IMG/VR virus record: IMGVR_UViG_3300027778_000006
Coordinates: 1-39,585 of that record
DNA from: a virus
DNA length: 39,585 nucleotides
Strand: one strand, 5' to 3'
Positions 36,139 through 39,585 of the stretch are shown piece after piece. The position numbers and the translations under genes are program-made. Below the pieces are notes generated by a model that was not told where the DNA came from, searched no databases, and worked only from the letters and a program-made list of their open reading frames with translations. Every line of letters begins with the position of its first letter. Positions within the stretch are counted from its first letter, which is position 1.

Positions 36139-36157
36139 TGTCTTAGATGTCTTAGAT
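36139..36157 (+). promoter_or_regulatory. Tandem TGTCTTAGA sites upstream of the HTH gene (probable operator)
   Basis: Two exact 9-mers TGTCTTAGA lie head to tail (36139-36147 and 36148-36156), 41 bp before ATG 36197. The same 9-mer is repeated in the gene-free region after the primase gene. A weak promoter could overlap them (TTTACG at 36122 and TAGATG at 36144, 16 bp apart), so binding here would block rightward transcription. The natural candidate binder is the HTH protein encoded next, but this is inference. Confidence 0.65.
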
Positions 36158-36196: not shown

Positions 36197-36481
36197 ATGC
36201 GACATATTCCTCTACCCGGTTACCTCTCCGGCGCCGAAGCCAATGAGATACTGAATTTCCTCATCGGCCGGGCAAACATTTACGCGTTTAACGCGCGTGA
36301 CCTAAAAACTTTCGCGCATGAATGTGGTGTACGCGCGGACAATTTATCCCGACATATCCGCGAAGGACGTTTCCCCGTTCCCTTTGCAGAGAAGATTGAA
36401 GCCGCATGCGGACGTAATTTCGTCCGCTGGGAGTGGCTGGTAAATCCGGTTCTCTGCATGGAAAACGGGGAGATCTACTAA
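36197..36481 (+). CDS. Small Cro/YdaS-like HTH DNA-binding protein
   Basis: This 94-aa protein has a helix-turn-helix region at about residues 34-75: ARDLKTFAHECGVRADNLSRHI, then PVPFAEKIEAACGRNFVRWEWL. Its layout follows YdaS/Cro-like regulators, which end with a helix reading (IP)xxxxxxIExAxGxxVxRxxLxP. The N-terminus (MRHIPLPGYLSGAEANEILNFL) adds a helical extension. ATG 36197 has AGGAG about 9 bp upstream. Its stop overlaps the primase start (TAATG), so the two are co-translated. With tandem motif copies directly upstream it is likely an autoregulator of the rightward operon. It could also mark the origin for the primase-helicase. Confidence 0.82.
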   Translation: MRHIPLPGYLSGAEANEILNFLIGRANIYAFNARDLKTFAHECGVRADNLSRHIREGRFPVPFAEKIEAACGRNFVRWEWLVNPVLCMENGEIY

Positions 36482-39096
36482 TGTCCAAAACTTCGCTGAA
36501 AGTCGTCGGCGAGGACCTGGCTGTCAACGGTTATGAATTCGTCCCGTTACGGAAAAACGAAAAACGACCAATATTTTACGACTGGTCTGCCCTCGACTTC
36601 GCTTCTGAATACCAGACGTGGATTAAGCGCCATCCCGATGCGGGCGCTGGGATCATCACGTCAAAAACCCCGGCCGTCGACCTGGATATCCGCGATAAAA
36701 AGCTGGTTCAGGAGATGTCCGACTATGTCGAACTCGGTTATGGCTCAGCGCCGGTCCGAATCGGCTTAGACCCGAAACGCCTGCTGATGTTCCGCCTGGC
36801 TGGCAAGCCTTTCAAGACCATCAAATCCGTCTGGCTGGATGAGGAAGGACAGAAATATGAAGTCCAGATCCTCGGCGATGGCCAGCAGTTCGTGGCTTAT
36901 GGTGTCCACCCGGACACAATGCAGCCTTACCGCTGGGTCGAAAACGGAGACCCGTTATCAGTGGACTGGGGCGAACTGCCACGTCTGACTGAACAGCAGG
37001 GCTTCGAAATCGTCGAAGAGTTTGACCGCCTGTGTCGAGCTCGCGGCTGGACGCACAAAACCAAACACCGCGAAGACATCACGGACGATTTTGACGACCC
37101 CAACGCGGAGTATGAGGAAGACGACTGGGTCAACAAATCGTGGGAAGCTGGCCAGAGTTATGACGGCGACTACGATGAACTCGAACGCAAAATCATGCTG
37201 CTGCCAAACGCGGACGATTACCACCAGTGGGTAAAAGTCATCGCTGGGCTGCAGACGGGTATCGAAGACCAGGAACGGGCCTACGACATCGCCCTGAAAT
37301 GGTCGGCTCAGGCCAACAACTTCGATCAGGATGCCTTCGATAAAAAATGGGAAGAGGGTTTCCGCCACGACCGCAACAAACTGGTCTCGTTCCGTTCGCT
37401 TCTCCAGGAAGCCAACGATATCGAGGAACAGCAGCGCGCGGAAGCGGTTGAAAAGCTGATCCCCACGTTCCTCGAAGCGACCAATCGCGAAGAGTGGATG
37501 GAAGCGGCCGCCAAATTCCGTAAAGCCAAGGTGTTCGGGCTTGCGCGCCAGGACGTTATCAAGATCGCCGCCGACCAGTATTTCAAAATCACCGACCGTA
37601 AACTTTCGTCGGGCGAGATCAAGAAATCGCTGGCATTCCGCGTCGACCCTGACGATATGCCCGGCTGGCTGATGCCATGGGTGTTCAATACCGCAACGGG
37701 CGACTTCGTCAACATCCGCAATGGTGCCGTCATGAAGGTGCAGGCTTTCGACCTGTCCATGAAGCGCTACATGTCAGGTGACGACGACCTGACCCCGACG
37801 AAACTGGCGATGGAAGTGTTCATGGTGCCGACCATTGAAGGCGTCATGTACAACCCGATCATGCACGGTAATCTGGCCAACTCGGAATGGAAGCCGGTGC
37901 GCGAGTGTGCGAATCGTCCGGAATTCTTCCGCTTCTTTGAGTCGGAGAACATGGCGTATTCACCGGAAAACGGCAAAGTGTTCCTGAACACCTTCCGTCC
38001 TGACACGCTGATCGATATGCCGGAAGAATACTCAAAGCGCGACCTTAAAAACGTTAAGCTGATGAAGGACTTCTTCGCCGTTCAGTTCCCAGACCAGCGG
38101 GAACGCGAGTATGTGATGGAGTACTTGGCATGGGTGATCAAACATCCAGGCCGGCGCATCAACTACGCGCTGATCATTCACGGTTGCCCTGGCTCCGGTA
38201 AGACCATTCTGTCAGAGATGTTCCGCTGCATTCTCGGCGATGCCAACGTGGGCGCGGTCAGCAACAGTGACCTGCAATCCTCGTTCACCAAATGGGCAGA
38301 AGGCGACATCGTTAAGTTCGTGGAAGAGGTCTCGGTAATCGGCCACGGTTATGACGTCCTGAACAATATCAAGGACAAAATCACTAACCCGATTATCTCC
38401 GTCCGCCGCATGCGGGAAGACTCCCTGAAGGTGCAGAACACCGCGTCTTACATCATGGTGACGAACGACCCCGCGGCCCTTCCAATCGACAGCAACGACC
38501 GCCGCTATCTCATCGTGGCCAGTCAGTTCCAGGACAAAGAGCGCGACCTGGTTCCGTTCCTGAAAGAAGAGCCGAATTTCTTCAAAAAGTTCGACCGTGC
38601 TTTCCGCCAGTCGCCGGGCGCCATGCGTAAATGGTTCAGTGAATACTCGTTCCGGAAGGACTTCAAACCGGACGGTGGTCATGCCCCTGTCGACACCAAA
38701 GCGCGTGAAAGGATGATCGATATGAGTAAGGATGAATTCACCGATAACGTGGTTTCGTCAGTGGCAGATCTCGACGTTATGAGCGTCACGGCCGAACTGA
38801 TTTTCATGCCCGATATGCTGTTATGGATGGAGCGAAACGTAACAGGTTTCAAAGCGCCGACCAGTCGATCGCTGTCCCGAAAAATGGAAGCAATTGGCTA
38901 TTACAAAGTCGGGGCGGGCAGCACTGGTCAGGTCAGATATAACGGATCTAAGGGCAGCTGTTACGCAAAGAATCCGAAGCACTTTGAACAGATGAATGGT
39001 CTCGCGGACCCGGATAAGATTCGTGACCACCTCGATAAGCACAATGCGAAATTTGACGGAGACGACGACGAATTCGATGAAAACGATCTGCTATAA
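36481..39096 (+). CDS. Primase-polymerase/helicase fusion (Prim-pol, PriCT, SF3-type helicase)
   Basis: This 871-aa protein joins three parts. Residues about 10-190 are a bifunctional Prim-pol domain with the metal-binding DxD (Asp67, Asp69 in AVDLDIRD) and QFVAYGVHPDT. Residues about 235-320 look like a PriCT-2 linker (NADDYHQWVKVIAGLQTG). About 540-720 is a DUF5906/D5-like SF3 helicase: Walker A GCPGSGKT (near 568), Walker B-like IVKFVEEV (near 609), sensor-type MVTNDPAALPIDSNDRR (near 660). The C-terminus (about 770-871) could be a winged-helix DNA-binding region, with acidic end DEFDENDLL. ATG 36481 has GGGGAG 9 bp upstream; ATG 36433 lies inside the HTH gene. Such proteins unwind origins and prime synthesis. 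Confidence 0.94.
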   Translation: MSKTSLKVVGEDLAVNGYEFVPLRKNEKRPIFYDWSALDFASEYQTWIKRHPDAGAGIITSKTPAVDLDIRDKKLVQEMSDYVELGYGSAPVRIGLDPKRLLMFRLAGKPFKTIKSVWLDEEGQKYEVQILGDGQQFVAYGVHPDTMQPYRWVENGDPLSVDWGELPRLTEQQGFEIVEEFDRLCRARGWTHKTKHREDITDDFDDPNAEYEEDDWVNKSWEAGQSYDGDYDELERKIMLLPNADDYHQWVKVIAGLQTGIEDQERAYDIALKWSAQANNFDQDAFDKKWEEGFRHDRNKLVSFRSLLQEANDIEEQQRAEAVEKLIPTFLEATNREEWMEAAAKFRKAKVFGLARQDVIKIAADQYFKITDRKLSSGEIKKSLAFRVDPDDMPGWLMPWVFNTATGDFVNIRNGAVMKVQAFDLSMKRYMSGDDDLTPTKLAMEVFMVPTIEGVMYNPIMHGNLANSEWKPVRECANRPEFFRFFESENMAYSPENGKVFLNTFRPDTLIDMPEEYSKRDLKNVKLMKDFFAVQFPDQREREYVMEYLAWVIKHPGRRINYALIIHGCPGSGKTILSEMFRCILGDANVGAVSNSDLQSSFTKWAEGDIVKFVEEVSVIGHGYDVLNNIKDKITNPIISVRRMREDSLKVQNTASYIMVTNDPAALPIDSNDRRYLIVASQFQDKERDLVPFLKEEPNFFKKFDRAFRQSPGAMRKWFSEYSFRKDFKPDGGHAPVDTKARERMIDMSKDEFTDNVVSSVADLDVMSVTAELIFMPDMLLWMERNVTGFKAPTSRSLSRKMEAIGYYKVGAGSTGQVRYNGSKGSCYAKNPKHFEQMNGLADPDKIRDHLDKHNAKFDGDDDEFDENDLL

Positions 39097-39126: not shown

Positions 39127-39151
39127 GCCCTGGAGAAATCCGGGGCTTTTT
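39127..39151 (+). terminator. Terminator after the primase-helicase gene
   Basis: On the plus strand GCCCTGG pairs with CCGGGGC (7 bp including one G-U) around a 6-base loop and is followed by TTTTT. It lies 31 bp past the primase stop and ends the rightward two-gene operon. Confidence 0.85.
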
Positions 39152-39221
39152 ATTGGTGACGGTGGCGCCCCGGCATTTTTTCACGAAAAATTCCGCGATT
39201 TTTTACCACTGAAAACACCGC

Positions 39222-39505
39222 TGTCTTAGAACTTTCGAAATTCTAAGACGCAGTTATCTTTTTGATTTTACAAGTAGAAATGGCCCTGTCTTCGGTGTCT
39301 TAGATATGTCTATATTCATGTGTGAGAAATAATATATGTAATGTGATGTGAGATGAAATCGATATTACCTATATAGTGATAGTCTTATTTTTCTAAGACA
39401 TCTAAGACAACTAAGACAATAAGAATATAAGACTATAAGAACTAAAGAGATTTCTGCTGTCTTAGATCTTGTCTTAGATCCTCTGTCAGCCGGAATTCTA
39501 AGACA
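39222..39505. repeat. Array of 9-bp TGTCTTAGA iterons around an AT-rich core (candidate origin)
   Basis: The 489-bp gene-free stretch 39097-39585 contains seven exact copies of TGTCTTAGA: plus strand at 39222, 39296, 39458 and 39470; minus strand at 39392-39400, 39401-39409 and 39497-39505. There are also near copies (39242-39249 with 8 of 9 bases, 39410-39418, 39382-39389, 39425-39433). Three lie in perfect 9-bp tandem at 39392-39418. A 10-bp direct repeat GTCTTAGATC occurs at 39459 and 39471. Between about 39305 and 39450 the DNA is very AT-rich, as in DNA-unwinding elements. The position beside a primase-helicase gene suggests a replication origin; a control region for a gene beyond the window is the alternative. 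I see nothing in 39506-39585. Confidence 0.8.
39223..39249. repeat. 27-bp hyphenated palindrome of the TCTTAGA motif
   Basis: GTCTTAGAA (39223-39231) and TTCTAAGAC (39241-39249) form perfect 9-bp arms around a 9-base centre containing TTTCGAAA, itself a palindrome. It is the leftmost element of the repeat array and could bind a symmetrical protein dimer. Confidence 0.9.
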
Positions 39506-39585
39506 ACACTGCTGCCGTGGCTGGAAAACGCCCGTGGAACCATAGGCCGATCCGGGAATTCTCGCAAACCGCGGCTCAGCGCCCC

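Follow-up and report, generated by a model that had tools for sequence, protein, structure and literature searches.

The window, that is, the whole stretch of 39,585 nucleotides that was analysed, is a fragment of the genome of a Casjensviridae (chi-like) phage. The closest phage is Erwinia phage pEp_SNUABM_08 (Casjensviridae), with which the window shares 69% primase identity. The left end of the window truncates an open reading frame (positions 1-1492). The genomes of relatives are approximately 58-65 kb, and therefore about 20 kb of this genome is absent from the record. Many independent contigs terminate at the right-end position of the window, GCTCAGCGCCCC, and the cos overhangs annotated in Smarc1 and Stilesk agree with this end, as does the determined cos of chi, 5'-GGTGCGCAGAGC (PMC4342425). 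Because the right end of the window is the physical end of the genome, the repeat array described below lies between the primase stop codon and cos. The following features have been identified in this region.

36139-36156, + strand: two exact TGTCTTAGA units in tandem within the HTH-primase operon's promoter region, a proposed autoregulatory site (exact match)
36197-36481, + strand: small HTH-like protein of 94 aa (phrog_7401) that heads the primase operon (annotation)
36481-39096, + strand: primase-helicase with Prim-Pol, PriCT_2 and SF3 (DUF5906) domains, the proposed initiator (domain matches)
38728-38973, + strand: winged-helix domain predicted close to the C terminus of the primase, the proposed reader of the units (AlphaFold2 model, winged-helix matches, covariation)
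39127-39156, + strand: terminator-like hairpin with a T tail, 3' of the primase operon (sequence)
39222-39505, both strands: iteron array with the unit TGTCTTAGA, a proposed replication origin (seven exact and at least two one-mismatch copies)
39223-39249, unstranded: left inverted unit pair with 9-bp arms (folds as a hairpin)
39304-39453, unstranded: AT-rich core, a candidate unwinding element (75% AT; no other 150 bp of the window are as AT-rich)
39392-39418, - strand: 9-bp tandem triple, two units exact and one variant (unit matches)
39458-39479, + strand: two 10-bp direct repeats TGTCTTAGAT (sequence)
39574-39585, unstranded: cos end of 12 nt (GCTCAGCGCCCC; complement GGGGCGCTGAGC), the physical right end of the genome

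The gene encoding the primase-helicase overlaps the gene of the 94-aa HTH-like protein by one base, and the helicase part of its product matches the NrS-1 primase (6k9c). An earlier note, made from the sequence alone, had placed an iteron-like array directly downstream of this gene, and its description is confirmed. The seven exact copies of TGTCTTAGA that it reported begin at 39222 (+), 39296 (+), 39392 (-), 39401 (-), 39458 (+), 39470 (+) and 39497 (-), and variant copies with one mismatch were located at 39242 (-) and 39410 (-). Its 27-bp palindrome is the left inverted unit pair, its tandem triple and AT-rich core are found as listed above, and its 10-bp direct repeat on the right begins at 39458 and again at 39470, 12 bp apart. 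In the region downstream of the primase stop, 10 sites of the best 9-mer were counted when up to one mismatch was allowed; dinucleotide shuffles gave at most 4. The whole window contains 13 such sites of TGTCTTAGA (shuffle mean 4.9, maximum 12). The note had named a motif common across the whole genome as grounds for rejecting an origin; the exact unit is not common across the 39.6 kb and occurs only in the array and in the HTH promoter. The array is located approximately 70-360 bp from cos. Its single-strand fold has a z-score of -4.7 and contains several short hairpins in which inverted units pair; one long stem of about 100 nt, of the pRN1/BPP-1 type, was looked for in this fold and was not seen.

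Relatives were gathered by an alignment scan, which yielded 80 loci, whereas a scan of viral contigs with a single primase sequence found none. Of 81 related loci, roughly one half to two thirds have an array in the same position, between the primase stop and cos. A 9-mer with at least six sites was found in 52 of the 81 loci, whereas 11 of 81 reached this count when the best of six control segments was taken from each locus, and the best 9-mer counts after the primase stop reach 16 in the family loci, against shuffle maxima of mostly 3-6. About a third of the loci, mostly distant ones, contain no clear array by this site-count test. For the weak arrays of the chi group, automatic selection of a 9-mer was unsuccessful, and the unit was instead chosen manually from the top 8-mer. 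The repeat word is specific to the clade, and the dialects include TGTCTTAGA, TGTCCCATAA, TGTACCAGAA, TGCCCTAAGTT, AGGTTACAA, AGGTAACAG and others. The conservation in relatives that the earlier note had asked about is thus one of place in most of them and not of letters, which differ by clade.

The spacing and orientation of the sites are largely kept across different words. Measured from the third unit, shared sites are located at about -75 and -53, at +95 to +119 and at about +153 to +223. The layout of the window is matched by L088 (8 of 8 sites), Smarc1 (7 of 8), Salmonella phage YSD1 (L022; 5 of 5) and Salmonella phage FSL SP-030 (L034; 6 of 8), with P values of 0.00025-0.0005, and by L030 (5 of 6); P for all five matched loci is 0.00025-0.0015. 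The comparison with pEp_SNUABM_08 fails at a 3-bp tolerance because the core of that phage is 5 bp longer. A counterpart of the left inverted pair is present in pEp_SNUABM_08, L025, Smarc1, L088, YSD1 and FSL SP-030. The layouts of the distant groups L050, L097 and L072 differ from that of the window. The AT-richest 150 bp of the genome lie inside the array in four of the five genomes checked (the window, pEp_SNUABM_08, G001 and BP12C); in the fifth, Smarc1, the AT-rich 150 bp of the array rank third and are near-tied.

Strong downstream arrays of other words, with up to 16 sites, were also seen in more distant primase-helicase loci (L050, L052, L056, L072, L097, L061 and L080-L092). Two loci picked up by an 18-mer scan, L014 and L015, were discarded as chance or coding matches, since they have neither array-region similarity nor further units. 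In the interval between the array and cos (39506-39573), relatives of different dialects have a common element, GG.GC.AT....GATCC.. followed by CGCGGCTC at cos, which is likely the terminase recognition region. Cumulative GC skew, proposed earlier as a check, was computed for the window, pEp_SNUABM_08 and BP12C. The minimum falls near the start of the HTH operon in all three, where transcription diverges, and for this reason the skew is not diagnostic and was set aside as evidence on the origin.

The tandem units at 36139-36156, approximately 40 bp upstream of the HTH gene, were overlooked by the earlier note. Each phage carries its own word in the operon promoter in the window, pEp_SNUABM_08 and L025-L028. 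The HTH promoter holds two to three units in the window and pEp_SNUABM_08, and in that of L025 a single clear unit with the phage's own word remains, accompanied by remnants that look like the word of pEp_SNUABM_08. Exact units are confined to the operon promoter and the array in the complete genomes G001 and G002. Outside the clade of the window, units were looked for in the HTH promoter and were absent, although the array is present. A sigma-70 scan of the + strand upstream of the HTH gene found no promoter. By eye, a candidate promoter, TTGCCT-N17-CATTAT or CATCAT, is common to pEp_SNUABM_08, L025 and L028, and the units lie in the spacer in pEp_SNUABM_08 and L028. In the window, TTGTCT-N18-TACCAT is a weaker candidate promoter that would lie over the tandem units.

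The earlier note had named two candidates for binding the repeats, the primase-helicase and the HTH protein. Close pairs of phages exclude the HTH protein as the determinant of the word and favour the C-terminal wing of the primase-helicase. Between pEp_SNUABM_08 and L025/L026, the HTH protein is 96% identical, the small terminase (TerS) 95-96% and the primase core 92-93%, whereas the C-terminal 140 aa of the primase are 68-69% identical, and the words differ (TGTCCCATAA vs TGTACCAGAA). L025 and L028 have an identical word; their HTH proteins are 57% identical, TerS 86% and the primase C termini 94%. YSD1 and FSL SP-030 have identical HTH proteins (93/93) and TerS (189/189) and an SF3 domain of 98% identity, with a wing of 67% identity and different words (AGGTTACAA vs AGGTAACAG). 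TerS is also 99.5% identical in L036 and L044, which have different words. The small terminase is thereby rejected as the word determinant along with the HTH protein. Among related pairs with SF3 identity of 60-97%, the sharing of a word was predicted best by the wing (AUC 0.85), followed by SF3 (0.70), HTH (0.61) and TerS (0.56). In a global partial Mantel test of 24 genomes, all domains correlate with the word and the wing is not singled out; this test does not discriminate, and the claim for the wing therefore draws on the close pairs. From these comparisons, the C-terminal winged-helix domain of the primase-helicase is the probable reader of the repeats.

In FSL SP-030, L036, L040, YSD1, Stilesk (L023) and much of the chi group, a convergent small gene separates the primase from the array; several records annotate it as cro/cI or HTH. 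This cro/cI-like gene differs within the YSD1/FSL SP-030 pair. A comparable open reading frame was sought in the window, L038, L045 and Smarc1 and was not found; because these carry arrays, the gene product cannot be a general reader.

The DNA identity of YSD1 and FSL SP-030 is mostly 95-99% through the HTH and primase genes, drops about 485 bp before the primase stop, at the SF3/wing junction, remains at 27-68% through the wing and the array, and is back at 95% immediately before cos. The drop between pEp_SNUABM_08 and L025 is milder. This pattern suggests joint divergence or exchange of the wing and its neighbouring origin, by which the word would switch and the layout would stay.

The C-terminal 188 residues of the primase were modelled with AlphaFold2 from 43 sequences. 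The mean pLDDT of the model is 79, with values of approximately 82-93 across the winged-helix part. In a comparison with the PDB, most matches to model residues 67-148 were winged-helix domains, with low Z scores (best 4.4); these are weak general matches that point to no specific family. A Foldseek search gave nothing significant, and neither a sequence nor a fold match of the wing to P4 alpha or SaPI Rep was found. The predicted recognition-helix residues vary between dialects (e.g., APTSRSLSRKME, APTKRSMARKME and APNSRSISRKME), and these differences are taken as a lead only. Between L042/L046 and YSD1/L040/Stilesk, a Leu/Val difference and others in the predicted wing strand seem to be paired with TGTTACC vs TGTAACC words, and the Leu/Val site is a possible specificity position.

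Three other explanations of the array have been weighed. The position of the array within about 70-360 bp of cos is what would be expected of a cosB-like packaging site bound by the small terminase. This reading is the least probable of those considered: the word differs between phages whose terminases are identical (YSD1/FSL SP-030) or nearly so (L036/L044), the HTH promoter, 3 kb away from cos, contains units as well, and the roughly 60 bp before cos form a separate element, similar across dialects, that is a better fit to a terminase site. The promoter units of the window and pEp_SNUABM_08, two to three in each, would suit operators through which the small HTH protein represses its own operon, the array being a further downstream cluster. 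That account is nearly as improbable, given that words differ where the HTH protein is identical (YSD1/FSL SP-030) or 96% identical (pEp_SNUABM_08/L025), that the word is the same in L025 and L028 with an HTH protein of 57% identity, and that outside the clade of the window the array is present but the HTH promoter has no units.

The origin could also be a DNA stem-loop downstream of the replication gene, as proposed for pRN1 and BPP-1-type phages, with the repeats being secondary. The gene order is the same (regulator, Prim-Pol/SF3/wing protein, downstream region), the z-score of the fold is in keeping with such a structure, and a stem-loop has been proposed for these systems (PMC4234260). 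The fold, however, comprises several short hairpins and not a single long stem, the units vary with the wing protein, and tandem direct repeats, which a stem-loop does not need, are part of the layout. A stem-loop origin is accordingly judged very unlikely as well, if slightly less so than the other two.

An iteron-type origin beside the Prim-Pol/SF3 gene is thus the best-supported reading of the sequence comparisons, the motif not being genome-wide and the array being at the same place in most relatives. The array itself is real, and it most likely represents an iteron origin, a generally known kind that appears to be undescribed in this family; a search of the open-access literature for an origin or iteron array of chi-like phages found none. 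That it is bound and melted by the adjacent primase-helicase through the C-terminal wing is proposed with good confidence. In the proposed mechanism, the primase-helicase would bind the 9-bp units via its winged-helix domain, assemble as SF3 helicases do, melt the AT-rich core that lies between the clusters of units, and prime synthesis for the phage's own DNA polymerase. With the array located so close to cos (70-360 bp), firing would probably follow circularisation of the genome. In the clade of the window, the primase-helicase probably also binds the units of its own operon promoter, which would limit its expression by negative feedback (autoregulation).

The closest precedent is found in SaPI Rep and SCCmec Cch2. 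The C-terminal domain of SaPI Rep acts on iterons directly downstream of its own gene, the isolated C-terminal domain of Cch2 binds such repeats, and SaPI5 Rep has been described as having primase and helicase domains (PMC7581432). The layout of the window resembles these and P4-type origins: repeats lie directly downstream of the gene of a helicase initiator, an AT-rich region by composition lies within or beside them, and the initiator has a helicase domain and a predicted C-terminal DNA-binding domain (weak fold Z). Recognition by the C-terminal domain, known there, is proposed here from covariation. In contrast to the systems of SaPI Rep and Cch2, the family of the window is one of cos phages that have a DNA polymerase of their own, the array lies right next to cos, the operon promoter holds a second group of units (in the window), and the word switches between close relatives. 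The alpha protein of satellite phage P4 is also a single primase-helicase, whose winged-helix domain binds the origin repeats (summarised in PMC4234260); such a domain is predicted in the window, but the P4 alpha primase is of the Toprim (bacterial) type whereas that of the window is a Prim-Pol. The archaeal plasmid pRN1 (orf56/orf904) and the phages BPP-1 and BIP-1 share the gene order of the window, with a small regulator gene, a Prim-Pol/SF3/wing replication protein and then an essential downstream region (PMC4234260). The 2014 pRN1 paper reported that for the wider class of Prim-Pol/SF3/wing replication proteins a specific binding site had not been found, and suggested stem-loops (PMC4234260). 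A large stem-loop is proposed for the pRN1/BPP-1 type and its authors found BIP-1 to lack origin iterons (PMC4234260), whereas the family of the window has a repeat array of conserved layout.

For the chi-like family, we somewhat favour the view that wing and origin together make up a specificity cassette, which is swapped or rapidly rewritten as one piece. The layout would stay fixed while the word changes, the origins of close relatives would be mutually unreadable, and in one clade the promoter word would change in step. Natural phages that are nearly identical and differ mainly in the wing and the word would allow direct tests, by a few swaps, of the reader, of the word and of the code that connects the two. 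Such a cassette may explain a barrier between co-infecting relatives, because an initiator would replicate no dialect but its own.
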